Shown in pieces: positions 156 through 31,953 of a DNA stretch of 53,077 nt. The translations under genes were made by a program, and so were the position numbers. This DNA comes from Isohypsibius dastychi (taxonomy: Eukaryota > Tardigrada > Eutardigrada > Parachela > Isohypsibiidae), in the NCBI GenBank assembly GCA_034696485.1, contig JAQIWT010000027.1:1-53077 (forward strand), given 5' to 3'. The notes under the pieces are model-generated. The model saw only the letters and a program-made list of their open reading frames with translations, was not told the origin of the DNA and did no database searches. The number at the start of each line of letters is the position of its first letter. The first letter of the stretch is position 1.

Positions 156-558
156 AGTCTAACGAAGTACTTGCGGGGGTTACCTATCATCAACCCGGCA
201 ACGTGTACGATTGACATCTCCTCCATGACGTTCTTAAATTCAGCATTTGTTTTATCGATGTCTTGACCATTGCTCCAGATCAGCTTTAGCAGTCTGGGTT
301 CCAGTTGGTCATGGATGAGTGGCTCACTGAAAACAACTGTGATGAGAATGTTCATATATGATAGAAGGGCTCACGAAAATGTGCTTACCCAGTCCCAAGT
401 CCCAAATACACAGGAGTTACGGTGAAGCGGTGATTCCCAGTAGCTTTTAAACTCGTGATCACACTGATGATCCTTCCATGGTCTGGGTATTCATCAGACA
501 TCGCGAAACTTTTATCAAACGTGGATCTCGCGGATTCAAAATTGAACATGTCCATCAT
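156..558 (-). CDS. Partial two-exon gene of unknown function
   Basis: Not recognised. On the minus strand an ATG at 558 opens an exon (558-389) that ends at a GTAAGC donor. The intron is 388-327 and ends in TTTTCAG; the second exon runs 326-156 and ends at a GTGAGT donor. The splice phase is coherent (phase 2 to phase 2), and both exons stay open, giving about 113 codons. The peptide starts MMDMFNFESARS, is mixed in charge, and has no signal peptide or membrane segment. An in-frame stop follows the last donor, so a further exon must lie at or beyond the left edge (a weak acceptor is near 50). The ATG choice is the first in frame. The reading rests on splice coherence only, not on homology. 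Confidence 0.45.
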
Positions 559-1048
559 GTTGAAAAAAGCAGAAGCCGGAAGTAGGAAGAGTTGAAATGA
601 AAATGTGCCGAGAAATTTGGTAGTTTAAACAGACATTGGTAGTGCAAAATGTGGCGTGATGTTTCATAGGTAAAAAACACACCACATTGCGATTGAGCCT
701 TACGAAGTGAACTAGTGCAAACCCGATGATGTTACATAGTTTAATAATACGAGACAGTGCCAGAGTGCCTCACGAGGTGAACCAGTGCGATCCTGAAAAG
801 CCCTGAATTGTTAAGAAGTGGTGACCTGCTCATGAAAAAAGAGCAGTACTGTTTTCTGGAGGTGACCCGGGCCCGAAAAAAAGAAATGGATTGTGCTGAG
901 GCCATGACTTTGAAGGGGGAAAAAGCCTCGACAAAGTCGAAACAACAAATGAGATGTGTATAAAACTCTGAGGTTTTTAAGTCACAAACCAGTATCCACT
1001 TCTGCACCAATTCATCAGGGATAACCCAGAAACACTTCACAACCCAAG

Positions 1049-1130
1049 TAACCACTCAACCAGACCGGAAACTACTCGCCCACTCAAAAAACCATTCGCC
1101 CACGCCCGGAACCACTCGCCCAGGCCCCAA
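1049..1130. repeat. Short imperfect C-rich tandem repeats
   Basis: About three imperfect copies of a ~24 bp unit built around ACCACTCGCCCA and CCGGAAACTACTCGCCC. The rest of 560-1300 shows no convincing gene; a 104-codon minus-strand frame at 741-1055 has no recognisable feature. Confidence 0.4.
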
Positions 1131-1314
1131 CCCATTTTCCACCCCAAAGGCCCAGGACCCATTCCCGGGTCACTTCAGCCGCCCAGACGCTCATGAACCA
1201 TCAAAAACAGCTGGAAAACGTAAAACTCCACCGGATTCTACCAGGACGTCAAAGTAGGGAGGTAAGGGACGGGAAATCTATCCCTAAGTAATCGTTGAAT
1301 CATTGTTACAGAGT

Positions 1315-1650
1315 TATTTCGATTCATATTTGCATTTGGATCCTGATTTTGATTTTGATTCTGATTTTCACTTCCATTCTTATTTTGATTTCTTTTTTTA
1401 TTTTCGTTTCTATTTCTATTCTCAATTTGATTTTTTGTTTTTGTTTTTAGCTTTTATTTTTTCTTTCGTTACTCTGATTCCGATTCTGATTTCAATTTTG
1501 ATTTTGATTTCATCTTTCAATTTCATTTCCATTTTCATTTTCATTTTTATTTTTATTTTCATTTTCATTTTCATTTCCATTTTCATTTCCGATCTCATTT
1601 TCATCTCCGATTTCATTTTCATTTTCTTTTCCATTTCATTTTCATTTTGA
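1315..1650. repeat. Degenerate ATTTTC/ATTTTG hexanucleotide microsatellite
   Basis: About 330 bp of imperfect hexamer repeats (ATTTTC, ATTTTG, ATTTCC). The tract opens a 115-codon plus frame made almost only of F, I, S and D, and a Met/Lys-rich minus frame; both are by-products of the repeat. Confidence 0.85.
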
Positions 1651-1651
1651 A

Positions 1652-1903
1652 CAATCTGCATACCGGATGTGATGTTGGAGAATGGGTCGGCTCCGATGGT
1701 GTCCGTTTCCTAACATACATCTTACCTAGTTGCTTATATTCGGGATATGATAAATTGTATTAGTTCAAAGAAAATGACATATTACATTTTTGGAATATAA
1801 TGTCTAAAATGTTTGAACAATCTGCATACCGGATGTGGTGATGGAGAATGGGACGACCCGAGGGAGCGACGTTTCCTACCATACATCTTTCCTGGTTGAT
1901 GCA
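1652..1903. repeat. Direct duplication, two ~87 bp copies
   Basis: Copies at about 1652-1740 and 1817-1903 share AATCTGCATACCGGATGT, GGAGAATGGG, CGTTTCCTA and CATACATCTT in the same order, about 165 bp apart. They differ by small substitutions and an indel. The second copy sits just upstream of the promoter of the small membrane-protein ORF. Confidence 0.8.
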
Positions 1904-1918
1904 GTTGTTTGTTGGATG

Positions 1919-1931
1919 ATATATTAAATAA
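1919..1931 (+). promoter_or_regulatory. TATA-like box of the 1995 ORF
   Basis: TATATTAAATAA lies about 65-75 bp before the ATG at 1995, similar to the spacing before the first NADAR gene. A prediction from sequence only. Confidence 0.35.
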
Positions 1932-1994
1932 GTTTAGGGAATATTGGATTGCCATGGAATTCAATATTCACCTGTTTTTCAATTTTCACTAACC

Positions 1995-2330
1995 ATGAGT
2001 CAACGAAACGGAAGCCAAGTCGGAAGGAGCAGAGCCGAGTATATCCAAACAGCCATTGCTCGTGCCACCCTTGTCGAGGCCGGCAACGACGGAATCAGCG
2101 GACCGCCACCAGCCAGTGCAGAGGAGCATGTCGTTGAGGCTGGCAACGGTGAAATGGAAGAACAGCAAGCAACCAGCGCCCAGGTCCCAACTTGTGAGTT
2201 TAACAACGGTTGCTGGAATTTCGTTTATCTTTTGATTTTCATTCTTGGTTTAAGTTTGCTTTCGATTGTCAGTTTCGGCGGCTTTATATTATCCATCATG
2301 GAATTGTTCAGTTTCCAGAGATTGAATTGA
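1995..2330 (+). CDS. Small putative single-pass membrane protein
   Basis: No family recognised. The ATG at 1995 gives 111 residues (an upstream in-frame ATG at 1944 would add 17). The first ~70 residues are polar and contain two VEAGN repeats (VEAGNDG, VEAGNGE) separated by a Pro/Ala stretch. A single strongly hydrophobic segment of about 25-30 residues follows (from WNFVYLLIFILGL to ILSIMELF), so the protein would be anchored near its C terminus. A TATA-like box lies upstream. A possible splice donor (GTGAGT) inside the frame at about 2192 means a spliced form without the membrane segment cannot be excluded. Expression is not shown by sequence. Confidence 0.4.
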   Translation: MSQRNGSQVGRSRAEYIQTAIARATLVEAGNDGISGPPPASAEEHVVEAGNGEMEEQQATSAQVPTCEFNNGCWNFVYLLIFILGLSLLSIVSFGGFILSIMELFSFQRLN

Positions 2331-2840
2331 GAATATTCGTTGATCGTAAATATCCGCAGTTTGAACTGCGAATCTTTCGAATGATAAATCCAACAACGGA
2401 GTAAAAAAATATCAATTATGAGCTTATTTCCGAATCATAAAATCATCCCTAGTTTGTGACTGTTCAAGGCTACTGAATTCTATTCAGGTTTCAGGTGAAT
2501 TCTATTGCAAGCTTTAGTCAACGATACTCGTTGATTTGGTTCGAGGCTTTTTAGAGTCATCACAAATGGTGCTAGTTCACGCACTTTATCCGTCATTTTT
2601 GGGGGAATGAGGTTTCTTCCGGATTGACATACACTCGCATACGAATTACTAGCAGAATGTGAGAACGTATCCGAAAATAGTCCGGTGTATCACCGCGAAA
2701 ATCAATGACAAGAGGCTGGTAGGTTTCTGACATGACCATATCATATGCGCTGCTTGAATGCTTGAGTTAAGGTGAATAGCTCTCATCGAATTTTCCTGTT
2801 TGTACAAATTATGCAGCATGAATAGAATTGATACACTTTT
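2331..2840. other. Intergenic, no gene seen
   Basis: Contains short in-frame stops in all frames and no homology I recognise. The TBP-like frame begins directly after an in-frame TGA at 2829, so no upstream coding extension exists without an intron. Confidence 0.5.
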
Positions 2841-3509
2841 ATGATGGATCTTTTGCGTGAAAAATTTGGTAGCGTTCTTATTGCCCACAAGACCTTCGGT
2901 AACATCATCCAAAATGAGGAGCGTTTTTTATTCAAATTTGAAAACAGCTTCGTCTTCAAAAATTTGAGTGATGTTTTTCGTGAAGAAAATCTCCGGCATG
3001 TTACGAGTCAGCTCTCCGTAGATCGATTGCCATTCATCACACACGTAAACTATGCGGTCAGTTGGGTGTTCAGTTCGGGTGTTCAGTATATTCCATCAGA
3101 ATTTTCCGGATTATTGTTTCGTCAAAATTTGGCGATCAAGAGTCACTGCCAGATTTACAAGAACGGCAACATTACGGTAAACGGAGGGAAATCTGTTTGG
3201 CAGTCACGATATCCTTTGCGCAAATATGTCAGAACCACCAAAGCCCTGGGTTATACCGAAATTCATCCTTTAGATTCTCGAGTTGTCAATCTCATTGGTT
3301 CTGCTGATCTTGGACGTCGGCTTAGTCTGCAATCCGTAGCAAAGAAATTCAATTTAACCTTTGATTCTGAACTTTTTCATGGCCTTACAATCAAGCTCAG
3401 CGAATGTATTGCGGTTGTGTTCTATGGCGGAAAAGCAAATTTTCTGGGTGCAAAAAGTGAACTAGCACTTCATGCGATGCTGATTGAACTGGTGATCATG
3501 ATTGACTAA
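2841..3509 (+). CDS. Divergent TATA-binding protein (TBP/TRF-like), intronless
   Basis: The 222-residue frame contains the two imperfect repeats of the TBP core fold, which in the family bind the TATA minor groove and nucleate RNA polymerase pre-initiation complexes in the nucleus. Repeat II is clear (about residues 140-222): RKYVRTTKALGY, then a region matching NMVGSCD of TBP as NLIGSAD, then ELFHGL (ELFPGL in TBP) and VVFYGGKANFLGAK (IFVSGKVVLTGAK in TBP). Repeat I (about 52-135) is weaker: EFSGLLF and QIYKNGNITVNGGK. Of the four DNA-kinking phenylalanines, three appear kept and one is Tyr. About 50 N-terminal residues are not alignable. An 11-bp duplication (GGGTGTTCAGT twice, near 3064-3089) enlarges repeat I. 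The gene is intact but so divergent that it is a paralog or foreign copy, not the housekeeping TBP. No TATA box of its own is evident. Confidence 0.7.
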   Translation: MMDLLREKFGSVLIAHKTFGNIIQNEERFLFKFENSFVFKNLSDVFREENLRHVTSQLSVDRLPFITHVNYAVSWVFSSGVQYIPSEFSGLLFRQNLAIKSHCQIYKNGNITVNGGKSVWQSRYPLRKYVRTTKALGYTEIHPLDSRVVNLIGSADLGRRLSLQSVAKKFNLTFDSELFHGLTIKLSECIAVVFYGGKANFLGAKSELALHAMLIELVIMID

Positions 3510-3725
3510 AGTCGTATGGTTTCACAGATGAACTCAAATGGTCGCTCTCTGCAATTTAAGAGGCATTCATGCCGACATGCTCGCTTGACCTGATGATTGG
3601 ATCCGTCTCCGAGCGGCAGGAACATGTAGCCGCATCGCACGCCCTTGAGGTGACCATCTCTGCTGAAACAGTAGATTCCCAATCCGGCCGAAATGGAATG
3701 ACAATCACTGTCTGTTTTGTTCATA

Positions 3726-4663
3726 CCGGGTTGTCCACTATTTTTGACTGTAAACTTTGATGCAGTGCACCTCGGCCCCTTTTGCTACAAAACTTGAGAC
3801 TTTGATCACGGTCGACAGCGAATTCATTTTTCTATCTAATCGGCTTTCTAACTGAAGGGTAAAGCACGGAATTCCGCCAGGAGCGTCAAACTAACAAGTA
3901 ATGGTCGGAAGTTTTTTTGGCTTGGCCAAAAAACTCGAAATCTATCAAACTCGTGAACAACTTTCTTGTCCACGCATCTTTGTGATGTTTTAGTATCAAT
4001 TTTCAAGGCGCTACAGTTTTTGTAGCAATCACCTAAAGATTGAATGATGCAGCGAGAAGATACAGCCCCCTCGTAAAATTAAAAATTGTCAAAAACCCGT
4101 TTTCGTGGACACGTGGTTGGTCACTTTCGGTTTTGCGTTGCTAGTGGTCACTTGAGGGATCAAAACGACTTCTGTAGTCATTTTTTTGGTAGTCAGAAGA
4201 AGCACGAACAAAAGGATATGTTTGCTGGACCATATTTTGAATTACTCGGTTCCTGCACCTCAAAAAACCATAAAAATTAACCGAAATCGCCGTTTTTGGT
4301 TCAAGCCTGATTTTTGCAATGCCAATATGTTTTTTCCTCTGAAATAAATTGCAGCTGTCATGAGTAGTTTTTGAGGTACATTTTGATATGGAAAACAAGG
4401 CAAGCAGATCATTCACTTAATAGCTGTTGTCATGGAAACTTTGCCAAGACAAAAAAATTGTCGAAAAGCCATGGAACTATTTGACCGGCCTCCAGTTTTA
4501 CAGCTCCCCTTTGGAGAGAAGTTGCACCACATGAATACCTTGCCCATCACCGAATAGAGAGATAAATTCCCGATCTAATGATTACTTATATTTCTGTATT
4601 TTAAAGCAACATACAGAAATATGCAGGACAGGAATTTACAGTCAAAGATAGTGGACAACCTGG
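3726..4663. mobile_element. Non-autonomous Tc1/mariner-like element (938 bp)
   Basis: Near-perfect terminal inverted repeats of about 29 bp: the left end begins CCGGGTTGTCCACTATTTTT and continues GACTGTAAA; the right end is its reverse complement with three differences. Both ends are flanked by TA (3724-3725 and 4664-4665), the target duplication of Tc1/mariner-type transposons. No transposase frame is inside; the longest frames are 64 and 91 codons on opposite strands. A second, right-truncated copy lies at 31632-31953. It inserted between the TBP-like gene and the next coding remnant. Confidence 0.85.
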
Positions 4664-4789
4664 TACTTGGCGAAACTTTTGAGCCGGCCATCTGTCCAGT
4701 TCATTTCCGACAGTAACAGATCGGAGTTTATTCCATATTTTTGTGATAATCAGAATCTAACTATATCATATTTTATTCGACATAAAATC

Positions 4790-5370
4790 TCAACCTTTCT
4801 TCAGGACAAAAGTTGCACGAATGTACTGATCGTTCATGAGCTTGCCAGAGAAGCGTTTCCGATTTTGGTCAGTCTCAGCTTGACTTGGACGACGACTCCG
4901 GCGAAATGTCCGCGGCGCTCCGGCCAGCATATCTTGAATCAATTTGTCCCAGGTTTCACGAGGTTCAACTTTGTTATTTGGGGGCTCAATGTGTCGAAAT
5001 ATTCGTTGTTGGTCGAACGTCATCTAGTATGGAACAGCTACCTCAAGCCATTCCAGTGGCAACTCGTGAGCAAATCCGAACCACCCTTCGTAGAAAAACC
5101 TCTTGGCAAAACGCAAATCGGGGTTTTTAGAAGACGTCTCTCGTGGCCTTGGCGAGCCTGATGATTCGCTGCTTGCATCATGAAAACGAAGGACTTGAGT
5201 TGGAACGGGTTCTTCACAATCTTCTTCACTGCAAGACCCCTCCATGTTTTGGTACACACTGTACACCCGTCGTTCACAAGTTTCAGCCTTGTGGGGTTTC
5301 TTTGGTGCATTCAGGATGCTCCCCAATTTTTCCTCGTCTTCCGAAGGCTCTATGAGTTCTAAACCAGCAA
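4790..5370 (-). pseudogene. Unrecognised minus-strand coding remnant with one in-frame TAG
   Basis: A single minus frame from about 5370 to 4790 (roughly 190 codons) is open except for one TAG at 5026-5024, immediately followed by ATG. The upstream half is acidic and Ser-rich (SEEDCEEPVP, ASSESSGSPRPRE) and ends FFYEGWFGF; the downstream half is basic (RRSRRPSQ) and ends before a possible GTTGAG donor. The composition is protein-like on this strand, and the 164-codon plus frame here looks like its shadow. No start codon precedes 5326, so an upstream exon may be missing. The right TIR of the TA element begins 127 bp downstream. It could be a broken gene, two small genes or a transposon fragment. 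Confidence 0.35.
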
Positions 5371-5532
5371 GAGTTGGACAATAGATTCAGCTCTTGGTTT
5401 GATATTTGACATGCCGAAACGACACTTGTGCTCCTTCTCAAGTCGCCTCTCCTTGTGATTATTTTCTGCAGATGATCGGGTTTGGATCTCACGAATCATG
5501 CTCAGGTTAACTTTCTATGCTAAATTCCATGT

Positions 5533-5538
5533 TATATA
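5533..5538 (+). promoter_or_regulatory. TATA box of NADAR copy A
   Basis: TATATA lies 69 bp before the chosen ATG at 5607. Copies C, D and E have a TATA element closer to the ATG. Confidence 0.4.
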
Positions 5539-5606
5539 CCATCAGAGGGTTTGTTTCTTCAAATTATCAGTACATCGACCTTATTTTTCAACGGATTCAC
5601 GGAACC

Positions 5607-6131
5607 ATGGACAACAACAAGGGCAGTGCCAACTTTATAACATTTGTCAGCTTATTTCCTGCTGCTGGAGATAATGGGTACTTGTCTAGTTTTTACCCTC
5701 CACCGATAGCGGCCGACGGAAAGACTCATCGCCACAGTTCAACGTACTACTATGCAATGCGCTTCCCTGATCAACCTCAATTCCAAGAACAATTGCGAGC
5801 GGTTGTCAACCCTTCGACTGTGAAACTCTTGGCCGACAGTGGACTTTATCCTGGCCGATCTGACTGGTTTAAGGTTCAGGATACGATCATGCGTCGAGCA
5901 ATCTTTTACGAGTTCACTCAACATCCCGCCCTCTTTGAAAAACTAACGAAAACAAGAGGAAAAATTATCATCGAGCAGACCAATCGAACCTGCTATTGGG
6001 GCAGCGGTTCCGATGGATATGGTGTTAATCGCATGGGAACTTTGTTGGTTGAGTTCAGAGACATGCATAAAAATGGAGACATCATGGCCGATGTTCTCAG
6101 TCCCGCAATCCAACAATCTAGTCATGACTAA
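5607..6131 (+). CDS. NADAR (YbiA/DUF1768) domain protein, copy A, intact
   Basis: 174 residues, one NADAR domain and nothing else. Characterised NADAR proteins remove ADP-ribose or cleave N-glycosidic bonds of riboflavin or NAD-related intermediates (established for YbiA and DNA ADP-ribosylation reversal). Seen: LSSFYPPPI-DGK near residues 30-45, STYYYAMRF, GRSDWFKVQDTIM around 90, TRGKIIIEQT, and WGSGSDGYGVNRMGTLLVEFRD at the C end (given here only as a position, about 130-160). The glutamate of the family motif S-x-E-x-Y-Y is replaced by Ser here, and the Asp three residues before WG is Thr, so activity may be lost or changed. Start 5607 was chosen because the sibling copies also begin just before the domain; an in-frame ATG at 5517 would add 30 residues. 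Its stop overlaps the ATG of copy B. Confidence 0.8.
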   Translation: MDNNKGSANFITFVSLFPAAGDNGYLSSFYPPPIAADGKTHRHSSTYYYAMRFPDQPQFQEQLRAVVNPSTVKLLADSGLYPGRSDWFKVQDTIMRRAIFYEFTQHPALFEKLTKTRGKIIIEQTNRTCYWGSGSDGYGVNRMGTLLVEFRDMHKNGDIMADVLSPAIQQSSHD

Positions 6132-6555
6132 TTCTGGTTCGTATCGCGGAAGTAATGGATTCCTTTCTTTTCATCATCCATCTCAATTCACCGTGGATTG
6201 GAAAACCTATCGTTTCGCTACAGCATACTTTCAAGCAATGAAATTCCCGGTCAGCCAGCAGTTTCAAAGACGGATTCGTCTTGCAAAGCAGCCTGAGGAA
6301 GCTTACCTACTCGGTGGAACACTTGGCCGTTTACCGAACGACTGGATTGACAAATGTGATGATGTCATGAGAGATGCAATTTGTCACAAGTTTACACAGA
6401 ACCCTCATTTATTTAACAAACTCCTGTTGACTGCGCCACAAGGTGACATCGTTTTTTATTTCGATAGATTCTGGGGCATTGATGTTTTTGGTACGGGTTA
6501 GGGCAGTTACCGCATGGGTCAACTTGTGGTAGAGTATCGCGATTCAAAGCTTTGA
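6124..6555 (+). pseudogene. NADAR copy B with a late in-frame TAG
   Basis: The ATG at 6124 overlaps the end of copy A by 8 bp (ATG inside the last codons, TAA of A at 6129). The domain is recognisable throughout: NGFLSFHHPSQFTVD, TAYFQAMKF, DWIDKCDDVMRDAICHKF, and DRFWG. A TAG at 6499-6501 cuts it inside the conserved Gly-rich C-terminal motif; the same frame resumes for 17 codons (GSYRMGQLVVEYRDSKL) to TGA at 6553. The glutamate of S-x-E-x-Y-Y is Thr here, whereas the Asp before WG is kept. Without its own promoter it would depend on copy A's transcript or on readthrough. A truncated 125-residue product is still possible. Confidence 0.75.
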
Positions 6556-6573
6556 TTTCTTACATTCATCACC

Positions 6574-6580
6574 TATTTAA
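6574..6580 (+). promoter_or_regulatory. TATA-like box of NADAR copy C
   Basis: TATTTAA, 38 bp before the degenerate copy C ATG at 6618; the spacing equals that of copies D and E. Confidence 0.45.
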
Positions 6581-6617
6581 GCAACCATAAACCGTTTGCC
6601 ATTTCAATAAAACAACC

Positions 6618-7156
6618 ATGTCGCAACGAGTCATTTTCTTTTCGAACCCTGAAGGCGCCAATGAATACTTGTCAAATAACTAACGCTCTAAAATTGTGGC
6701 TGATGGCCATGTCTATTCTTGAGTCGAAGCATATTTTCGCTGCATGAGATACATTGATGTTCCCAATTACCCCGAGTGGTTGCGTACATGTGGTAAGCTC
6801 TCGGCTGCACCCTTGTTTGGGAACATGACCGGTTAGCGCCCAGGAGCGACTGGTCCGAGATGCGAGAGTATGTGATGCGCCAACCCATCTTCCTCGGATT
6901 CGATCAGAACCCAGTCTTGATGAGAGAGTTACAAAAGACGGGTGATGCTTTCTTCACTGAGATGCCCCGGCTCCACACTCCGGCCTACTTTTCATTCGCT
7001 GAACTTGAGAGAAGCTTTGATGGCGGACGTGTCCCTTCAAAAACTGTTCTGCCCGATGTGCGCCCCGAGGACTACTGGAAACAAGTTCCCTTCGGCAGCC
7101 GGTTCTCAAACATGGGTCAAATGTTGATGTACTTGCGCGATTTTAAACGTACTTGA
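6618..7156 (+). pseudogene. NADAR copy C, pseudogene
   Basis: The ATG at 6618 opens MSQRVIFFSNPEG...EYLSNN, then TAA at 6681, TGA at about 6720 and a frameshift near 6835. After the shift the frame from about 6845 stays open to TGA at 7154, with SDWSEMREYVM, FDQNPVLMRELQKTGDAFF and SNMGQMLMYLRD. The family glutamate is present (VEAYF). Copy C has a longer loop before the last motif than A and B. The lesions are spread over the 5' half only; the 3' half of 98 codons is clean. The gene is dead by any standard reading. Confidence 0.8.
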
Positions 7157-7213
7157 TTTGTTTTTTTTCCTACCCTCCACGATGTGATGGTTATCAGCGT
7201 GGTCCTGAGGTAG

Positions 7214-7220
7214 TATATAA
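7214..7220 (+). promoter_or_regulatory. TATA box of NADAR copy D
   Basis: TATATAA 39 bp before the ATG at 7259, implying a 5' leader of only about ten bases if transcription starts ~30 bp downstream of the box. Confidence 0.55.
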
Positions 7221-7258
7221 CAAGAAACTGCTAGCTTCACTTTATATGACCGACAACA

Positions 7259-7743
7259 ATGCCAAACTTTAAAAAACGTAAACCTCCTCCTGAAATTAAA
7301 TTTCCCGGGTGCAAAGGTCGGTATGGGTTTCTTTTCAACACATACCCCGCACCAATAACCATCGATGGTACGGTCTATGCGAGCAGTGAATCGTTTTACC
7401 AAGCTATGAAGTATCCACATTTGCCCGATCTTCAAGAACGAATTCGTTTGGCCCCAAACGCCGCAGCAGCAAGGTTTCTGGGAAACTCTAAACGTTTCTC
7501 AGTGCGGTATGACTGGGACGAAGCTCGATTCCACGTTATGCGCCAAGCAGTCTCATCAAAGTTCCGTCTAAATCCAAAACTTTCCCTCTCTTGGCTGCAA
7601 CAAAAGGATGCACGTTCAACGATGCACGTTTTAACGATGCTGGTGACCGTTTGTCCTCGAGCTATCCCCTCGAAGATGTCCGCGATGATCATGAAAACAA
7701 GACCTTGTTTCCATTGGGTTACCGTTCAGACATCCATAATTGA
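7259..7743 (+). pseudogene. NADAR copy D, frameshifted in the C-terminal third
   Basis: The ATG at 7259 gives a basic N terminus (MPNFKKRKPPPEIKF) and then a well-kept first half: TYPAPITIDGTVY, SSESFYQAMKY (family glutamate kept), YDWDEARFHVMRQAV, KFRLNPKL. Near 7580 the homologous frame changes: the original frame runs on to 7774 with unrelated sequence, while the shifted frame reads LLAATKG, YPLEDVRDDHENKTLFPLGY and stops at TGA 7741-7743, without the final MGQMLMYLRD-type motif. A tandem 12-bp-like duplication (ATGCACGTT twice, near 7607-7630) lies in the shifted segment and may be related. The product of the unshifted frame would be a 171-residue protein with an aberrant tail. Confidence 0.75.
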
Positions 7744-7793
7744 ATTCACCATTCTTCTATGCTTGTTTGCATGACCTCTGATTAATGAATGCG

Positions 7794-7800
7794 TATATAA
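7794..7800 (+). promoter_or_regulatory. TATA box of NADAR copy E
   Basis: TATATAA 42 bp before the ATG at 7842. Confidence 0.55.
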
Positions 7801-7841
7801 CTTTGAGCACCTTGCTCTTGCTACATGGTCAATGAACAGTC

Positions 7842-8336
7842 ATGTCGCTTGTAACTATTTTTCTACCCCTTAGTCCATTTTACAAGTCACCATTCACCGT
7901 CGACACCATCAGGTATGAAAGTGCAGAGCACTACTTCCGATCGGCCGGGTATCCTCGAGATATGGCTTACCATACCCTGGTGGCTGGAACCCTTGCTCAT
8001 GAGATCAAACTTCTTCATCCTCCCAGCTCAACACTCTCTCGCAGTGATGGGTCATCCATCCGAAAATGGTTGATGAGAGATGCCCTCTACCACAAGTTTG
8101 TTCAAAACCCCCGGTTGATGAACAAACTCCGGGCAACTGCCGGGCAGGTTATTATTGAACTTCCTCATCTCCCTGTTGAAGCTCATGCAGTTTACGCGAA
8201 CATGGAACTGGGTATCAAACGTGCTCAAGGCAAAACAGTCCCACTCATCATGCCGTTGTAATACTGGCGCGACGGTGAATTTGGTACTGGCTTCAACAAC
8301 TTTGGTCAAATGCTGATGGACCTTCGTGATGGATAA
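7842..8336 (+). pseudogene. NADAR copy E with a late in-frame TAA
   Basis: The ATG at 7842 opens 139 residues to TAA at 8259; the same frame then continues YWRDGEFGTGFNNFGQMLM and ends at TAA 8334-8336, clearly the missing family C terminus. Seen: SAEHYFRSAGYP (family glutamate kept), KWLMRDALYHKFVQNPRLM, ATAGQVIIELPH. The N-terminal Leu-Ser-x-Phe region is shortened. So copy E, like B, is broken by a single nonsense codon in front of the Gly-rich motif. Confidence 0.75.
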
Positions 8337-8925
8337 TACATGACCGCAAAACTAAATGACCTTCCGCCTGACACTTCGTTCTCATTCTCATGAAACAATG
8401 TTCTATGACTCCAAAATTAGCTTCACTGCAGCTCGATATCTCCTGAACAGACTGGCGAGAACACTACGCTTCCTATCTTCACATCTGACGTGTCAGCTCG
8501 TAGTCACTTTACTCGACAGCTTAGTAGTGAGAGATTCTGTTCATAGCGTAATGATGACAGCTTTCCGGACTCTGCGCGCACGCGACCCTGCTGCCTTGCA
8601 GAAAGACGATATTGCCAGTCTACTGCCTCCGGATCATCAAGACAGCAACACTGAAAGTGGGGCTGACTTTAACTCCTAAAGTCATCCTCATAACTTTGAC
8701 ATAGACTGTGAAGAGAACGACTCGGACATTGGACCCGAACCGGACTGTGACCTTTTATAAGTCTACCCGTTACTTCACCGGAATTAGGTCTAACACGCAA
8801 AGTCAATCGATAACTGTCTTCGCATCTCAGTTCACTGACGCTTTTGTTGCCGCTCAAAGAGCGACATGATCCCTATGACCTCCAGCGGAACTCCCTACCT
8901 CCTCTGACAAACCAGACGAAGAAAT

Positions 8926-10177
8926 CAACATGTTCGTCAACCGATGTGAAACCGTTCAATGTGTCAACAACTGCACTTACACTCAGCTCTTCGCCAAGAT
9001 AACTGTCTAGCTCAAATGTCACGCAGAAAGCTGGTGGCAGCGATGCTATCAGAGTACTCCCGCCATCACTTCATGGAAGACGACAGCGACTGACGTAGAA
9101 ATGCAAGAAGTTCTGGTAGACCGATTTCAACCTTTAGACGCTTTGAATTTCCGGATTAGAAACCTGAGCCGACGTGTCATGCAAGAAGGAGAAACCGTCC
9201 ATGAAAACTACTATGTCATTATAGAAATGTACGACATTTACGGGCTTTGTGAAACACTTACACCCCGGAGGAGATGGAGACCAAACTCGTCAAATAAACT
9301 CCAATGCCCTTCTTCACTCACATCTCTATCATGGAGCATACAACGCCGGAACAATATCTGTCGAAGATGTCCAAGGTCCTCAAACTCCATCAAAAAAGCA
9401 CAGCAAAGCAAAACCAGAATCCTGGATATTGGGAACTAGTGCACCCTGTCGACCAACCCTCGAAAATAATACCCCGTCCCGATTTACCCTAACAGCAACA
9501 CGTTAACCACAACACGTTCAATGGTCTGAATCTGCCATTTGTTCGATTACGACAAAACTTCGTGCGCACTCTTCCTCCCTTCGTCAACCAACAAGAACCA
9601 AAATTTGCTCCTCCGCAGTCTCCTAGATCTCCACAGAACTGTATAAACTTCAATCGTGGGATTCCATGCTTCATCCCAATGGGACAACAACGATGTCCAC
9701 ACAAACTCAACTGTGATAACTGTGGTCGCTATGGTCACTCTCTAGTTTTCTGCCGATTCATACAACCACCAGCCTAAAACAGACAACCTTCTATCCCAGC
9801 GCTTCGAAGCCAGCGAGGTCTGCCACCTCATCAGACTATGACAATGCCGCAAGAGAACCAAGTACGCTGTTTTAACTGCGGAGGACCTCACTTTCGGTCT
9901 ATGTGCGACAAGCCACCGCAGCAACAAAGATCTTTTTCAAACGGACCTTCTCAAGGTGGACCTCAAGCCCGGAGGTAGGTCAACATCATGATGAGACTCA
10001 CAACGCCAACAACCGAGGGACAGGAGTCGCCAACGCTGGAGGACACAATTACGTCCCAAACCAACAAGCCCGTGATACCACTCAAGCTAAACAACGCAAA
10101 AGCCGATGAAATATTTTAAGGTCTGGTTGCTATCCGTTCAAATAATTTGTTGCTAGCATTGACAGAATATAATTGTG
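8926..10177 (+). mobile_element. Degenerate gypsy-type retrotransposon gag
   Basis: The frame around 8930 contains a retrotransposon gag core: AESWWQRC, then W-K-T-T spacing, VLVDRFQP and GETVHENYY. It is broken by TAG near 9009 and by frameshifts after 9260. Two zinc knuckles follow: CDNCGRYGHSLVFC (C-X2-C-X4-H-X4-C) near 9715-9756 and CFNCGGPHFRSMC (C-X2-C-X3-H-X4-C) near 9869-9907, then a Gln/Pro/Gly-rich tail with TAA and TAG. The protease start may be near 10080. No reverse transcriptase follows on this strand and no long terminal repeats were found. The gypsy assignment is by gag style; BEL or Copia are less likely. Confidence 0.75.
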
Positions 10178-10472
10178 ACTAAGCATGCTGATGTAAGTGC
10201 ATTTCAGGTTATCAAAATTTTCGTTTTTGTCTACCCGATCGTACACATGTCTACCAAGATTGACATTTCGTATAATTTTGAACTCCGACATCAGGATTGT
10301 GTATCTCCTTCATGTTAATCTTGCAGAGGTCTGTACGACTGGCTCTTTTACACCTTTGAGCTTACCAGGTAAAGCAGCAATTTTCCGCTCCAGCTCGAGC
10401 AAATTCCCGTTTACTTGGAAAGCTGGTCTGTCGGCTACACTGAACTTGAGGACCGTTTTGCTCAATTCACAG

Positions 10473-11083
10473 CTACTGCAACGGAGGAGGTCAAAAGAAA
10501 ATATCGCACAAACATCTGTTCGACTTGATTGCTGTTATGGAGGATATGCACATGCAATGTGCGGCCAGAATGTTGGGCAAATTACAATGGAAGCTGAAAA
10601 GTCGCGTGATCGAATTGAAGAGTCAGCCAGTGCCGAACGAGGCAGTACTCAGATTCTGTGTAAGTGTTTCTCTCTGACGCGTTCTGGTACTCACATAATG
10701 GCGAGCCATGCTGAAGTCTAGCAACCGTGGTTTCTCCGCTACTGTGGAACTAAAATGTTGAAATAGAATTTACGTGAAATTCATTTACCTGTAATATCAT
10801 ACTTCCCCTTAAAGCATTCTTTTGTTCCTTCTTGCAAGCTCCTAGACTTTGAAACTGCAAGTTTCTGTATCCTGTAACAGATACAAAATTGCGATATAAT
10901 TTCAAGCACGCTGACCAAGTCGATCCAAAAGAGTTCGCTGTACTCAGGTTTGTCAAATTAATGGACGATCAGAGTTTTGTCTTTACGGTTCATCGGTATA
11001 AAGTTTTTAGTAGATTTGCGTTCATGGTGAGTAAGGAGCTGGAGGACATTATTGAACTTGTAGTCAAACGATGTCATACATGA
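10473..11083 (+). CDS. Possible two-exon fragment of unknown function
   Basis: Exon-like segment 10473-10659 begins after AATTCACAG and ends at a good GTAAGT donor; its frame includes HKHLFDLIAVMEDMHMQ and KSRVIELKSQPVPNEAVL. The next segment, 10862-11083, begins after GCAAG and in the matching phase continues FLYPVTDTKLRYNF and FAVLRFVKLMDD to TGA. No start was found and no family is recognised. The longest simple frame here (10197-10721) is in another phase and looks less protein-like. The interval 10178-10472 holds nothing I recognise. Confidence 0.3.
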
Positions 11084-13830
11084 GGTCTGTACCGGAATCA
11101 TCTTGTCTTGGTCAACCTGACTTGAACCTGACTGAGATTATTTTGGTTGTCGCGAGTTGTTGATTGGCCGGTTGATCACGATGTTTTGAAAGCGTGACAT
11201 AAACGCAAAAAAACTTTTCAACACAATCATGCTCTTACGTGTCAGTCCCATAGCTTTGTAAAACACCAGGTCGCCGTCCAACCGATTCAAACATGGCTAA
11301 CCGCTACAAGTGTCTTCCGTGTAGTTAATCATGAGGAAATGCTTTGTTAAGTACATCTTTATGTCTTGAATTCCTGATATCTGCAGAAAGACAAATTCAA
11401 AAAACTTCAGCTCATTTACAAGCGAGTTCATTAAACTTTCAAGGCCGGAAATCAGGCTATTCTTGTAACGGATTCATCTGTGACGGAACGCGATATAGCT
11501 GCACTTCGAATCCAAACTGTATCAAGTTAAACAACGAACTACTGAACAATCACAAGAGTAATTTTGTGTTTTGATTTTAGATCTCTGAAGGTTTTGTGAT
11601 GAAGGGGAGAGAATAACACTACATTGACATAAAAATGGCGAACATTTTTTAATCACAGCAAATTTTGGAAAACATTCCAGAAAAAACTTTTTTGTTTTTG
11701 GCATATTTTTGAGGTATTAGGTTTGTTTTTAATTCAAGAAGAATAAAGTGGGGGAAAACAAAAAGTCGAGATTTCAGATGAAAGGTGTGAAAAGTATTTT
11801 TTTTGAAGAAGTTTGATTTTGAATCTTTTCTGGGATTTCGAAGATTTTTTTGCATCAATAAGAAAACGAAAACTGCCTTTTATATTTTCATGCTGCAAAA
11901 GTCGATACTCCAAGTCGGGATCGATGGATAGTCTATTACGCCCACGAGAAAGAGTTTCAGATGCTGGAATCTGTTGCTCACGTTGTTCAGCAGTAGGTTA
12001 ATTTGAATAAGCATGGTAAATATCATACTTGGTACCACGTTCAATCAGCGATTCATGCGTATAATAATCACTCGTTCAGAGAAGACAATAAAATAAAAAA
12101 ACAATTTCATAACTTGCCCGTTCTGCTTTGTCGATGATTTGGAGAGGAGAAAGTCGACGGAGAGATTTGTTCTCGTGTCATGATAGAAAAGGCTATATGT
12201 CCATTCTGTAAGTCATGTGGATTGACAGAAAAAGGGACATGGGGAGCAGAGAGGTTAGGAGGTGCCATTGAGAGGGAATTCGGTTGTAATTTGGTGGGGA
12301 AGGATTGCATTCGATTGTGGTGAAACATTCGATTGCGCATCTGGAAGCATCGGTCAAGAGTGTATCCTAGAGATGGTTTTTAAATTTCTTGAATTTTTTT
12401 GTATGGAACAGGAGCGAAAATCAATGTAGTTCAAAGAAGAAGAAAAGTGATGATTGGAAACATGGTTCTGTGGAAGGAATGAAAGAACTAAAAACTAGCG
12501 AAAAACTCCGAGAATGGTAAGTGATGAAAGATGAATTATAAAGCGAGCGATTTGGTTCGGAATGCAGCAAGCATGTTGTTGTGAGAAAGAAGCCAGAAGA
12601 GTAGATACTCGTCGATAAGTTGTTCAAGAAAGCGGCCTCTGTTCTCTTTATGTCGGAACAGATCTGATCAAAGTTGTGGATTTGATATGATTGGCGAGGA
12701 GATCAGCCATAGCAAGAAACTGGGTTGTTGTGAGCTGTGTATCTTCCCAGTACACAATGGAGTGATTGAAAAACGTATTTTTAACGTCTTCATCTTAGAG
12801 ATTGTCGTAAGAATAACCACTCGGCTGCGGTTGCTTACCGAGAGTCACCATTTTGATGATATGTTAAAGTTCGAAATCGAAAGGATGCAAAACATTGAGG
12901 GAGGGTCGTTTTGTTAGGAAATAACCGTGAGTGTATCATTGGCAAGCACTTAATGTGTGGTAATGGTCATAATCGTCCTTCAAATTTTGGCGCAACTGAA
13001 GAAGACGCTTGGCAATAACAGGATCTGCATTAGAAACAGCTCTGGCCATAGGATTATTAAGTATACGGAAAATTTGTGTTTGGGGTTCCGGACGAGTATG
13101 TGGTAAAGAAAAGGGTGAGGGGGGGGGAGGGAGGTCATTCAGAAAATGCCAAATAATTGGCAGGTGACATGGTGTTTGAGGTGTTAATGCATAACTGCCT
13201 GAAATAAGGAGAATTAAAGAGCTGTTTGTCAGATACAGCGAGTAAAAAAAGGCACAAAACGAGTAGGAATGGAAGGATTCGCCGGAATGGTAGGACGATG
13301 ATCTCCCAGGATTGTTACAGAAAACAGCCGAGTTATTCAAGGGTACTGCTTCATCAATGTGTTAAATCCTAGTAAGGAATGCATAAAGAGAATTTGAAAA
13401 CTAAACATATGCTTCGCGTGGCTCAGCAGAGTCAGGTTTTTTGAAGGCTATCTCCTGTGGGGCGGGACATTTTGGGCAACGCGGAGGAGATTGAAGTGGA
13501 ATCGGTTGCGGCGACGAAATCGCGCGAGGTGCCCGAAGAAGAACAGTTCCTGGTGAATCTTGATTTTAAAAGAGATGTAGATCAGGAATAGGAAGCACAA
13601 CACCTCAAAAGTGGTGACAGAAATGTTGCGGTAACCAGAAAGCCTCATCTTCTCTCGGGGTACTTACCTTAGCATTTGAACGTTCTGATGACCTGGTAAT
13701 AAATTCAATTGTTATTTTTGGAATGGCCGTATTACTTCCTTTTCTTCAGACTGTTTCTGGCGCTCCGGATAAGCCTGGGCCTGCCCCCGGAAACGCGTCT
13801 GGAATGTAACACAGAGTACCGTTTTTCTGA
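11084..13830. other. Region with scattered exon-like stretches, no gene resolved
   Basis: Several short frames end at plausible splice donors: plus strand near 11890-11994 (RDRWIVYYAHEKEFQMLE, then GTAGGT); near 12175-12330 a Cys-containing frame (ICPFCKSCGLTEKGTW); near 12408-12526 a Lys-rich frame ending GTAAGTG, followed after an acceptor by a frame with one TAG; near 13440-13590 an acidic frame (NAEEIEVESVAATKSREVPE) ending TAG; and 13763-13811, a short last-exon-like frame after TTTTCTTCAG. On the minus strand 13198-12936 follows a good acceptor and reads PEPQTQIFRILNNPMARA to a stop. None has recognisable homology. Decayed genes or unusual multi-exon genes are both possible. Confidence 0.3.
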
Positions 13831-15510: not shown

Positions 15511-15827
15511 AGTATTTCTTGTGTTTATTTGTGCGTGTTGTCGGAACTGTAACAATGGTGATTCGAATCGGTCGAGATTAATTGAAATTCATTATGTTCT
15601 CTTTCATGTAAATTTAGCTACTTGCAATGTAACGTTGGTAACCTTCTATTACAATGGCAGCTGGTGATAACCATGGCTGAGTAACTGGTAGCGAGTTACG
15701 AATGAAAAATTTGTGAAAGTCAATCGGTGAAATTCTGAAGTTTCTCATCTACATCTGCGAGGTCCTTATCAATTCCGAGCAGAATCAAGCTTTGATCATT
15801 CCGTGTTTTATCAATCGTTAGGTAATA

Positions 15828-19754: not shown

Positions 19755-20410
19755 ATGAATGATTTGGTTCGTGAACTGCTACGTGAAGTACAACGCTGGT
19801 TTATTCTGGACGAGAAACATCCCATGACGTTTGAACACGAACCTTATGTCCTTGTTAAACCGGAAGTGGTCGGCAAGGCCAAACCGAAATCTTCAGAAAA
19901 AAATTGCAAGGGTATCTTGTATGCTGGCCGATCTTGCATTTACAAGGCAAGGGTCAGACAACATTCTCATCTCTTTAGACAAACCAAGGTACCGATTGAC
20001 TTTGAAATGGTCAGTTTTTCAGTAAAAATTATGTCTAGTCCCAACTTGATTCCGTCAGAACTGCTTCCTTACGGAAATGCCTCAATGGCCTAGGCATCAC
20101 GCGGATCTACGTGGCTCAGAATCTGACCATTAAAGCTGCGAAAGTTCTAGAATTCATGCTCATCAAGTTCCTGAAAACGCGGAGCACGGCCTTGCTAAAT
20201 ATCCAAATCGTATCAGGATCGACATTCGAGGATCTCTGTGGATTGTGGACCAACGCGGAAAAACTGAAAGCCAGTGAGATTCCTGCCAAACATGTATGCA
20301 CCATTATATCGCAGTTTGCAGCCAGAAAATGGACGATGGCGACTGTTGTCGGGACCAAGCGAAAGAAATCTCACGGAAAAAAGCTGTGCCTGTCAGGAGC
20401 GGGCATTTGA
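19755..20410 (+). CDS. GIY-YIG nuclease-domain protein, two exons
   Basis: Exon 1 is 19755-19988, the intron 19989-20038 (GTACCG...TCTAG, 50 bp) and exon 2 20039-20410; phase 0 to phase 0, 201 residues. The domain order fits GIY-YIG nucleases, metal-dependent DNA-cleaving enzymes: EPYVLVKPE (first strand), ILYAGRS (YIG-like), KARVRQHSH (catalytic Arg), then after splicing a helix KVLEFMLIKFL with the expected Glu, and LLNIQIVSGS. A Glu followed by a Leu-Asn pair recalls the LEM-3/ANKLE1 branch, but ankyrin and LEM domains are absent. The first exon may be preceded by another, because the start context is plain. Unlike its surroundings it has no lesion. The basic tail (KRKKSHGKK) may be a nuclear signal. 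Confidence 0.6.
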
Positions 20411-21230
20411 TTATCGTTTCATTCATTTCTTCTTGAGTTTGCCTTCAGTTTTGCATTCAGTTCTCACACGCTACTGTTCATCAAAAGTGGCTCGGTTAAT
20501 TTCTGTTTACAAAACTGGTCTCAAAAAGTATGGGATAGTCAGATGTTTTTTTAGATCTTTCTAAATTTCCCGTATTTCATCTGCTCACAATCTGCGCAAA
20601 TTTAGCTGATAAATCATGTACCAAACGGGAATATCTCGACGACTTGCAATATTGATGATTTTCTTCATGAGCATTTTGCCTCACAAAATCCAGTGTATGC
20701 AAAGACATTCATGGTTTTCCATTGTGCAGAGCTAAGACGCAACAAGTATGCCTTGATTAAAATGAGTTGGATTAAGGGCCCACACATGTAACGACGTCAC
20801 CGGGAATAGTTTGACCTTGTACCGGCGAATACAGCCGTTAGATGCTCAACAAGTGCTTTAGCCAAAGATCGATTCCGATGACCGTGATCTGATGAACCCG
20901 GCTTAATGGGGATATAATCGTCCGATTTCTGCCGAGAATATATCGAAGAAATGGGTGTCAGCAACTAGTAACGAAACGTCGACGAATCTAAAAAGGTCAC
21001 AAAATGAATCACCTTTCTCGGATTTGTGTTTTCCTAGAATAGTAAACAATGCCTGAGGTATTCAGGAATAACCGTTTTCGTACCGTAGATCCATCTCCAG
21101 CACATTTGTGCATGATGGTTACGAATCTTGAAGACCACCTCCGTACTCAGGATCGGCTTTTGTAAAACGGAAATGTGATTTATGTATGATTGTTAGTCAT
21201 CCGTGGTCCCTCACCTCAGATTGATCTGAG
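20411..21230. other. Degenerate interval
   Basis: A minus frame near 20990-20800 reads DDYIPIKPGSSDHGHRNRSL with nonsense codons and may be the tail of the Ulp1/PIF1 element to its right. No independent gene is supported. Confidence 0.25.
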
Positions 21231-21942: not shown

Positions 21943-23560
21943 CTAGTTTTGACTGTTGTCTAAAGACGCTGTTGGGTTGTCAACTTTCTGAGTACGCGAA
22001 TACAGTCGTACGGTAGGTTTTCGAAAGAGGTTCGTTGTTGGGATGGGCAGGAGTTGGCACATTTCTTCCTCATCGTTGATATGAGTAATACCGGACCGAG
22101 AATTTCTTCCGGGAAGAGGTTCAACCAGGCTCCGCAGACGCTCGATTTCCACCATGGCCGAACGATTCATCAAGAATGATAATGGGCTGTAATCGAGTAG
22201 AATGAGATTTTTCAGGGTCTTGAACCTCGTCACTAGCACGTAAAGTCCGGCTCCAGGTACAAAACGGCATTTTGGAAAATTCAGATTAGCACATCCCTCC
22301 GTCAACGTTTGGCTTTGAATCTCATGGACAGTGACCGCAAATGCTAGCTCCAATGGGAATTGTTTCCTGATTACCGACTTCTTATTCCACTTGAATCTTC
22401 CGGAAAAAATGGCAATCTTGATGGGTGTTTCAAAGACTTTCTCGTGATGTCCATCCAGAACGATCTCTATAAACGCTGGCATTTCTGCGAGAGTCACCGG
22501 GCTTTTGTTCACTTTACTGAATTTCGATTTCGTTACGGTTTGCTGAGTTGGTGCGTCCACGTAATTGTTAGGTTCCTGTGAGTGCCACATTATTCGATGT
22601 ACCGATCACGTGTTCCATTAACCAGTCCGGAATTTGTATCAAGATCTTGAGTGATCATGACCTTGCAACCAACGCTCAGTAGAAGATCTTTTACAAGACC
22701 ACCTGTTTCGTTCTTGTTGAGTGGTGCGTCGATGGTAATATCGTGGGTCATCCTCACTTCTGCACGTACTTTAGCTTTGCTCAATATGTTCGAATAACCA
22801 TACGAATCCTGAGCTAGGAAAGGATAATTCACCGATTTGGAATGGACGGATGCTGCGTCGAGCGTTTCTGCATTGAAGCGGTCTTTCTGAGCATCGGTGA
22901 CAAAAATATGGCTCCATTGAGACTGCACCTTTGCGTATTCGTCGGCAACAGCTTTCTATTCTTTGGGATTAGCATGGGGATCAAGGCAACGACTACGCAG
23001 TGCAGCATCCAGTTCTTCCGAAGGGACGCCTCCACGAAGTGGTTCGAGAAGTCTCGCAAAGTCTGGATCTTTGGCTTGTCGTACATTTCGATCAAGAAAA
23101 TGTGGTTGGAACAGCTTTTGCCATAATTTAATAGTTATATTGCGTCCTTCGTAAATGCACAGTTCGCGAACCGGTTTCAGCTGAGCAAAATCTACGACGA
23201 ACAGAAACGGTATTCCACCGAAGAGAATATCCAGGCTGTCCCCTGTCCCCATGATTTCGTCCAAACGCAGATTCATATTCTCAAAGAGTGACCGAGGCAA
23301 AATCGAAACATCGTCGACGATAATTACTAAGGCATGTTCAAACTTGCGACGTAAATTTCACAGTCTTTTGCTGTTGGCAGCCTTATATCCTGGCTCTCTC
23401 GAAAACTTAAAAAGGTCATGCACCGTGGTTCCACCAATATTTCTTGCCGCTGTTCCCGTGAATGCGGCCAGAAGAGCTCCAGCTTTATATTCACGTAACA
23501 AAAATCCCAGAATTTTGGTTGGCACTCGAGCAGTTTTTCGGATGGGGAGGGAAAAAAGAA
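21943..23560 (-). pseudogene. PIF1-like helicase remnant, minus copy
   Basis: Read on the minus strand in order: LREYKAGALLAAFTGTAA and NIGGTTVHDLF (motifs Ia/TxGx), an in-frame TGA near 23361, VIIVDDVSILPRSLF (Walker B with DD in place of DE), FLFVVDFAQLKPV, NVRQAKDPDFARLL, an in-frame TAG near 22955, VGCKVMITQDLDTNSGLVNG (motif V region), a frameshift near 22590, and FPLELAFAVTVHEIQSQTL with YVLVTRFKTLKNLILL (motif VI). PIF1 is a superfamily 1B 5'-3' DNA helicase. The Walker A loop is not recognisable in the expected place (about 23640-23560). Dead as a helicase; likely part of a transposon. Confidence 0.85.
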
Positions 23561-23865
23561 CGTGTAGTTCGCGCCTAATCAAGTTTGTCACGTTGAACGG
23601 ATGTATGCGCTTTTGGTGGTCTGCGTGCCTTTTGCTACCGACGAATTGAAAGATCGTCAATAGTGATAGTGAACTGAGTATCTTCACATTGAAAAACGGA
23701 ATTATATGAAAAAGTTGTTTTTGACCAGTTGGACTTTTTCTGAAAGGAAACATCACAGGAATAGATCGACGTCCGACTCGAATGTATCGAAAACTCACCG
23801 CGACAAAGAATAAAGCTGGAATTGATTTTAAACTGGAAAAAGATCTCCTTCATCATAGAAAAAAA

Positions 23866-31175: not shown

Positions 31176-31631
31176 GTGCAGTGTGGAGGCTTGTTAGCGC
31201 GGTGCAACTGCAACAAGCTCCTCAAGAAAGGTTCTGGATGAATGTAAAAAAACAGACGACTAAACTAGAGATTTCCAAATGACTTTTCTTCGGTCCTTTG
31301 AAGAACATTCATTTAATTTTACTTACAACCTCTTGTCACGATATTTTCTGTTAGATTATCCTGGACAATAGATCTTAATTCCGATTCAATCAACTTTCCA
31401 TATCTACGATTTTCTTTTGCAGTTCATATTTCTGTGTCATGACTGTAAGATGTCCCGAATATTTCGTCGGTCAAGTTCAATTCACGAGTCATTAAACGAA
31501 ACCAACACGAGGAGCTCTGAAAAAAGACCCGTGAAATGAACATCTGCGCCAGCGTTGATGGAGAATCGCTTAGATCTGTTTCGCTACCAGTGTCATGAAG
31601 CAGGATTTCTTACTTGCGCCAGAGCTAAGTA

Positions 31632-31953
31632 CCGGGCTGTCGACTCTTTTTGACTGTAAATTTTAGGGTAGTGCACCTCGCCTCCTTTTGCTTCAAAACT
31701 TTCGAATCTCAGTACGGTCGACAGAGAATTCATTTTTCTATGTAAAGCACTGACAAAGCAACGAGTGTCAAAGGAACAAGAAACGATCGGACGTTTTTTT
31801 GGCTTTGCCCAAATACGTTCTACCCGCGTCGTTGAGACTTGCCAGGCTCAGTTTTTATTGAGCTTAATTTTTCATAGCAATTCTCTCAAAATTAGATGAA
31901 GCACTGAGAAGATACAGCTCCCACTTAAAACCAAAAATCATCAAAAACCGTAG
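31632..31953 (+). mobile_element. Truncated second copy of the TA element
   Basis: Begins CCGGGCTGTCGACTCTTTTT after a TA (31630-31631) and matches 3726 to about 4095 with small deletions. The right two thirds and right TIR are missing; a (GAAGTA)n tract follows at about 31959. Confidence 0.8.

Follow-up and report, generated by a model that had tools for sequence, protein, structure and literature searches.

The 53,077-nucleotide contig JAQIWT010000027.1 of the tardigrade Isohypsibius dastychi (the whole stretch of DNA that was analysed, hereafter the window) carries five genes of the NADAR family head to tail at 5533-8336, all intronless and on the + strand, with one open and four broken. 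This locus raises the question of where such an array came from and what it was for. We found that it is the right arm of a dead, internally deleted Maverick/Polinton of the ~20-kb type, an assignment that we regard as nearly certain and that follows from comparison with a better preserved sister element on another contig, C432. Within its assembly (30.4 Mb, 1648 contigs) the window is numbered C27, and all other contigs named below come from the same assembly.

NADAR genes were called with Pfam PF08719 at its cut-off of 35.1 bits. NADAR A (5607-6131, +, 64.6 bits) is open over 174 codons, while NADAR B (6124-6555, +, 58.1 bits), which overlaps A by 8 bp (6124-6131), is interrupted by a TAG at 6499. 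NADAR D (7259-7774, +, 37.7 bits) is off the NADAR frame after ~7600, and NADAR E (7842-8336, +, 35.5 bits) has a TAA at 8259 and, compared with C432 copy 4, an in-frame loss of six residues close to the start. NADAR C (6618-7156, +) begins in a frame with stops at 6681 and 6720 and then changes to another, and its open 3' part reaches 19 bits only, below the cut-off; we identified it as a NADAR because both of its pieces match the third NADAR of C432 at 70-71% identity (tblastn). The original prediction for this DNA had described five intronless head-to-tail copies, four of them broken, with an 8-bp overlap between A and B. Pfam, tblastn (for C) and the stops or frame changes in B, C, D and E bear this description out, and the 8-bp overlap is also kept between copies 1 and 2 of C432.

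Colinearity with C432 (blastn) delimits a decayed Maverick/Polinton remnant at ~2151-8404 on the + strand, with matching blocks at window positions 2151-2338, 2402-2491, 2493-2767, 2767-3060, 3074-3684, 4672-5127, 5135-7146 and 7872-8404 that are 76-91% identical. C432 positions 192-281 match up to window position 2491 and C432 13830 onward begins at 2493, placing a deletion junction at 2491-2493; the unmatched C432 stretch (282-13829, ~13.5 kb) holds the type B DNA polymerase (PolB), BIR-RING, PC4, protease, capsid candidate and integrase genes, all of which are gone from the window copy. Upstream of the array there remain a broken packaging ATPase fragment (2596-3062, - strand; 82-83% identity to the C432 ATPase, tblastn), a TBP-like gene (2991-3506, +) whose 5' part is damaged and whose remainder is open (PF00352, 59.3 bits, two stretches over 2832-3506; 76% identity to the C432 TBP, tblastn), and the remnant of a large divergent Maverick open reading frame (4802-5514, - strand; tblastn pieces at 66-68% identity to C432 15871-17562). 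A later insertion with 31-bp inverted ends (3724-4665; ends 3724-3754 and 4635-4665, 94% complementary) sits between C432 matches that end at 3684 and resume at 4672, where C432 itself has only 15752-15799. At 31624-31662 the window matches the inverted end of this insert over 39 bp (85%), which perhaps marks a further copy.

On C432 the NADAR array is followed by a gene (20192-20488) that recurs in the C101 and C394 elements (36% identity and E = 8e-18 for the C432 gene), which places the C432 array inside the element. The D region is missing from C432 (blastn), and no counterpart of NADAR D was found there. A search of the window copy for terminal inverted repeats with a target-site duplication found none.

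The sister element shows what the window copy has lost. C432 carries PolB (DNA_pol_B_2, PF03175, 74.1 bits; cut-off 25.8), an rve integrase (32.6 bits at a cut-off of 32.6; 33.5 bits on C394), an adenovirus-type cysteine protease (Peptidase_C5, PF00770, 22.4 bits, and 23.7 bits on C101; cut-off 21.3), a capsid candidate, an A32-like packaging ATPase, BIR-RING, PC4, a two-repeat TBP and four open NADARs. Its PC4 and its BIR plus RING also score above their Pfam cut-offs, and the ATPase reaches 20.2 bits against Pox_A32, under the cut-off of 22.8. These elements are numerous in the assembly: the ATPase gave 46 matches on 38 contigs and the capsid candidate 53 matches on 36 contigs. The capsid candidate had no match by sequence in Pfam, PHROGs or the PDB; among its 32 database relatives at E ≤0.001, five are annotated 'uncharacterized protein F54H12.2-like' in the tardigrade Paramacrobiotus metropolitanus, which we take to be a Maverick-related label. 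Searches of viral contigs with the TBP and the capsid candidate, and of genome contigs with the TBP, returned no relatives. C394 has an 84-bp inverted pair (96%), with no target duplication seen beside it. BIR proteins, with a RING in C432 and C101, adjoin a PC4-like gene at 6656-7834 and 7689-8690 of C432, 17318-18430 and 18703-19590 of C101, and 10032-10721 and 11029-11925 of C394, the PC4-like gene of C394 falling below the Pfam cut-off.

Across the assembly, NADAR matches occur at 14 places on 8 contigs, with the four copies of C432 forming the second array. Six of the 8 contigs (C27, C432, C801, C394, C101 and C360) also have a TBP match; of the other two, C45 holds a fragment ~73% like C801, and on C480 no Maverick gene was seen. 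The single NADAR of C480 (9368-9817, - strand) is open, keeps all three active-site residues and is placed antisense between pieces of an alpha-2-macroglobulin gene. This may be a host gene or an old capture.

How old is the array? In a NADAR tree of 20 rows, A, B, C and E of the window pair with copies 1, 2, 3 and 4 of C432, respectively (bootstrap 99-100, SH-aLRT 98-100), while D has no supported partner and falls near C480 without support. Given one-to-one pairing for four of the five copies, and identities to A of ≤45% among the remaining array members, the array is older than the split of the two elements. The rapidly expanding family that the original prediction had considered is thus not what we see. 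Deeper phylogeny is less clear, the ten database matches being distant and the deep forks weakly supported.

Selection was estimated from window-C432 pairs. NG86 gave dN/dS values of 0.24 (A), 0.32 (B), 0.13 (C, 3' part), 0.39 (E) and 0.09 (TBP), and YN00 gave 0.36, 0.46 and 0.38 for A, B and E and 0.16 for TBP, with no value for C. In 500 neutral simulations, equally few amino-acid differences arose once for A (P = 0.002), with P = 0.04 for B, and in 0 of 500 for C, E and TBP. The NADAR lineage was therefore under purifying selection before the window copy decayed, and the paralogues are accordingly old. Relaxed selection, as first proposed from the broken frames, holds for the dead window copy but not for the lineage. 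NG86 dS is uneven among the genes (0.24 for A and B, 0.56 for E, 0.67 for TBP and 1.35 for C), a pattern that hints at exchange between elements.

We then read three published active-site positions (E43/E88, K50/K95 and E125/D171, from PMC11543638) on the NADAR alignment. Copy 3 of C432 keeps all three (E, K, E), as does the C480 gene, and copy 4 has E, R, E. By contrast, A and C432 copy 1 share S, R, E, and B and C432 copy 2 share T, K, V. Window E has E, G, E; D has E, K before going off frame; and the open piece of C covers the last position only, an E. Among broken or partial copies elsewhere, the residues are Q, R, K on C394, a gap, R, Y on C101 and G, K, E on C801. Because the changes are the same in A and C432 copy 1, and in B and C432 copy 2, under purifying selection, they are older than the decay. 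The same source reports that in vitro K95R still works and E88A has only a minor effect (PMC11543638); activity may thus persist in copies 1 and 4. Copy 2 lacks both glutamates and is the strongest binder candidate. Ahead of the YW motif, copies 3 and 4 have ~30 inserted residues. The fold was modelled for A only (10 alignment rows, pLDDT 84.5); the best PDB match of the model was YbiA (2b3w, TM 0.76), with 8bau at TM 0.64, and NADAR A is accordingly predicted to have a YbiA-type fold.

The promoters of the array were compared in the same two elements. A TATATA box precedes NADAR A (5533-5538, +) at -74, and C432 copy 1 has one at -75; NADAR C has TATTTAA (6574-6580, +) at -44, where C432 copy 3 has TATATA at -42; and NADAR E has TATATA (7794-7799, +) at -48, with C432 copy 4 at -44. 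NADAR D has TATATA (7214-7219, +) at -45 to the ATG at 7259, or -32 to the ATG at 7246. The spacings of 38, 39 and 42 bp originally given for C, D and E are right if measured from the end of a six-base box. No TATA-like box lies upstream of NADAR B; C432 copy 2 has a TATAAA at -58 that falls within copy 1 and is missing from the window, and we infer from sequence that copies 1 and 2 share one transcript. By chance such a motif occurs in 2.2% of 41-bp stretches of the window + strand and in 6.1% within 5501-8400.

Beyond the array, we examined 59 genes of C432, C394, C101 and C801, defined as open reading frames of ≥90 amino acids from the first ATG that have a relative on at least one other of these contigs, shadows being dropped; some starts in this set are wrong, and pieces of broken genes are counted apart. 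TATAWA starting at -65 to -30 preceded 6 of the 59, where 2000 shuffles gave 2.4 on average (p = 0.03); the six are three C432 NADARs, the C101 PC4, a small BIR-like gene of C394 and a small gene before the capsid candidate of C801 (14058). It was absent at this distance from the capsid, protease, integrase and ATPase genes of C432, C394 and C101. Conservation of the TATA boxes in C432 thus supports compact promoters, as originally proposed, for A, C and E, but the motif is no element-wide feature, and the 6 of 59 genes give no support to element-wide TATA promoters served by the element's own TBP.

The TBP itself is perhaps more surprising than the NADAR array. Pfam finds two TBP stretches each on C432 (108.0 bits), C101 (114.6), C394 (109.8) and C801 (110.7), as in the window (59.3). 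A TBP search of the assembly gave 28 half-matches on 18 contigs, one of which (C792) probably holds the host gene. On 13 of the 17 non-host TBP contigs there is also an ATPase match, separated from the TBP by 17-428 bp on 11 of the 13 and by 7.2-7.3 kb on C131 and C157; conversely, 13 of the 38 ATPase-match contigs have a TBP match. By these counts, TBP seems to mark one clade of Mavericks in this genome. TBP genes or pieces, mostly beside a packaging ATPase, were noted on C432, C394, C101, C439, C198, C491, C801, C784, C134, C360, C131 and C157 and at window positions 2991-3506.

A database search with the C432 TBP returned 13 proteins, eleven of them 43-50% identical to it, compared with 30% for the host TBP. 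The eleven are unnamed, mostly from ENA/JGI sources and probably metagenomic. In a TBP tree, six Maverick TBPs and these eleven group apart from the host TBP (93/93), and C801 and C439 form another group (94/99), both values being below the support level starred in the tree; the row for C274 has a very long branch, leaving its placement and identity as a TBP unsure. The aromatic residues that we presume to intercalate into DNA are kept at most positions; C101 has an Ile at one of them. Where the second of these is a Phe in the one cellular-type alignment row, all 14 virus-type rows have a Tyr, and C801, of the other group, has a Phe.

On the basis of these observations, the NADARs are Maverick cargo. 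Where an element still has open genes, they are probably transcribed from TATA-box promoters of their own, with copies 1 and 2 on a joint transcript and the other copies on one each. Their likely task while the element replicates is to take off or bind the ADP-ribose with which ADP-ribosyltransferases of the host modify nucleic acid or protein. Copy 3 of C432, perhaps copy 4, and D before its breakage, in which active-site residues are present, would be hydrolases, and copies 1 and 2, with published active-site positions changed in both elements, would be mainly binders. We place the probability of this explanation as a whole, from cargo status through expression to the role on ADP-ribose, at roughly 0.7. 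The counter-defence part, taken by itself, is a reading that we hold only tentatively, at rather less than even odds. It draws on the guanine-ADP-ribose hydrolysis known for NADARs (PMC11543638, PMC11125620), including those of E. coli C7 and Phytophthora (PMC11543638), and on a proteome survey of viruses in which NADARs encoded by RNA viruses of animals are argued to oppose ADP-ribosylation by the host (PMC9503650).

Several points weigh against the proposal. At least one of the three active-site positions is changed in three of the four C432 copies and in the C394 and C101 copies, in two of the C432 copies at a glutamate, and changes in most copies are a poor fit to a purely enzymatic role. 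YbiA-type enzymes also act on riboflavin intermediates (PMC11543638, same passages), so the substrate may be a metabolite. NADARs are present on only 6 of the 17 non-host TBP contigs, which makes them optional cargo, and for B the test of selection is weak (P = 0.04). The C432 contig is a 20.5-kb fragment, and the element ends lie beyond it. No partner ADP-ribosyltransferase was found among 16 C432 proteins beyond a weak FRG match, no genome search for such a partner having been made. What the sequences show is the element, its genes, where the array sits, one-to-one orthology, purifying selection and the residue and motif patterns; the expression, substrate and benefit of the NADARs are inferred.

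The main rival holds that the NADARs serve nucleotide or cofactor housekeeping, as N-glycosidases acting on damaged nucleotides or riboflavin-type intermediates. It would fit the YbiA-like character of A and C480 and the earlier known activity of E. coli YbiA on riboflavin intermediates (passages of PMC11543638); clean-up would not, however, obviously favour four to five divergent copies, two of them with altered active sites, and viral NADARs have been argued, in the part of PMC9503650 available, to act on ADP-ribose. We consider this rival unlikely. Appreciably less probable is an antitoxin-like self-protection, in which the NADARs undo ADP-ribosylation made either by their own element or by a competitor, on the model of the bacterial NADAR that is the antitoxin of the DarT1 and YarT toxins (passages of PMC11125620 and PMC11543638). 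FRG belongs to the ADP-ribosyltransferase superfamily (PMC9503650, in part), and the C432 integrase protein has an FRG match, at E = 0.17 and 13.2 bits against a cut-off of 25, with no stretch of its own, which we take as chance; that match aside, none of the 16 scanned C432 proteins matches an ADP-ribosyltransferase family (Pfam, E up to 1).

Two further alternatives concern origin rather than role, and both seem to us extremely improbable. TBP and A32 ATPases are also giant-virus genes, and Foldseek's first viral matches were giant-virus NADARs, as would suit a segment of a large DNA virus (a nucleocytoplasmic large DNA virus, NCLDV, or a nudivirus-like one). NADARs have been described from NCLDVs, iridoviruses and ascoviruses of insects among them (PMC9503650, in part). 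Against this, C432 combines an rve integrase, a DNA_pol_B_2-type polymerase and an adenovirus-type protease compactly on 20.5 kb, and its capsid candidate has tardigrade relatives named F54H12.2-like. We rejected a large DNA virus on this gene content. Of the foreign origin first suggested, the virus-derived part stands, given the TBP and ATPase remnants just upstream and the near-copy on C432, but the source is a Maverick/Polinton of ~20 kb. The other alternative, a host NADAR family that expanded in tandem alone and then decayed with no viral link, could point to the open NADAR between alpha-2-macroglobulin pieces on C480, as the genome may own such a gene, and to the unsupported position of D near C480. 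Yet two arrays at different loci have the same Maverick neighbours in the same order, and a gene common to other elements follows the C432 array. Host-only expansion was rejected on the ordered neighbours at the two loci, a conclusion that holds if the C432 assembly is right.

The window contig otherwise carries animal-type genes, a CDK5 activator (239.9 bits; best PDB match CDK5 activator 1) and a P-type cation ATPase. A search for the nematode SL1 leader, as a hint to the host, found none. Past the Maverick remnant, positions 9011-10119 hold zinc-knuckle, gag-like frames that look retrotransposon-like by eye; two pieces of this region scanned against Pfam gave nothing above cut-off. PIF1-type helicase pieces on both strands at 22956-24526 resemble Helitron-like or similar mobile genes, and a tandem low-complexity repeat at 1288-1763 translates to Phe-rich frames.

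In the open-licence literature we found no paper on NADAR together with Polinton, and the search for NADAR with Maverick gave only medical technology, unrelated by title. Titles and abstract starts in the same literature pointed to no Polinton-encoded TBP, and a term search of the main text of PMC11071296 and PMC11071308, preprints on such viruses, found neither TBP nor NADAR. Mavericks, which are virus-like elements found in animal genomes, may be related to many DNA viruses of eukaryotes. A clade here has its own TBP, beside the ATPase on 11 of the 13 contigs with both, and the eleven database TBPs are closer to it than the host TBP is, which raises the possibility that promoter choice lies with the elements themselves; the NADAR sets suggest that animals and Mavericks may contend over ADP-ribosylation, and the active-site changes shared by two paralogues suggest a non-hydrolytic NADAR role. 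A bolder and, on balance, doubtful extension is that a Maverick clade carries its own transcription kit (a divergent TBP and PC4, as core genes, beside the ATPase) and that a subset adds a tandem NADAR set with a division of labour, one or two hydrolases beside two conserved, catalytically changed binders of ADP-ribose that shield viral nucleic acid or proteins from host ADP-ribosylation. If true, this would be a DNA-virus counterpart of RNA-virus macrodomains.

These genes can be set beside known systems. With the YbiA subfamily (E. coli YbiA, 2b3w; Phytophthora nicotianae NADAR, 8bau) they share the predicted fold, for A, and all three active-site positions, for C432 copy 3 and C480; they differ in being tandem paralogues, in the loss of one or two glutamates in copies 1 and 2, and in the ~30-residue insertion of copies 3 and 4. 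Like the NADARs of iridoviruses, ascoviruses, other NCLDVs and invertebrate RNA viruses, they are NADAR genes in viruses of invertebrates, although the carriers named in the passages available of PMC9503650 are NCLDVs, phages and RNA viruses, with no Polinton among them. The Maverick TBPs have the two repeats of cellular TBPs and keep most intercalating aromatic positions, yet form a clade separate from the host TBP of this genome (93/93). TBP genes are also spoken of in mirusvirus-like elements, in the part of PMC10675990 available, and two repeats with mostly conserved aromatics are the likeness to them here. Finally, the sister elements match Mavericks/Polintons of the adintovirus-like kind in PolB, rve integrase, adenovirus-type protease and many genome copies, and also have an A32-like ATPase, just below the Pfam cut-off, and a capsid candidate. 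The window copy lacks these core genes except for ATPase pieces, and what the sister elements add to the known set is a two-repeat TBP, PC4, BIR (with RING in C432 and C101) and one to four NADARs.

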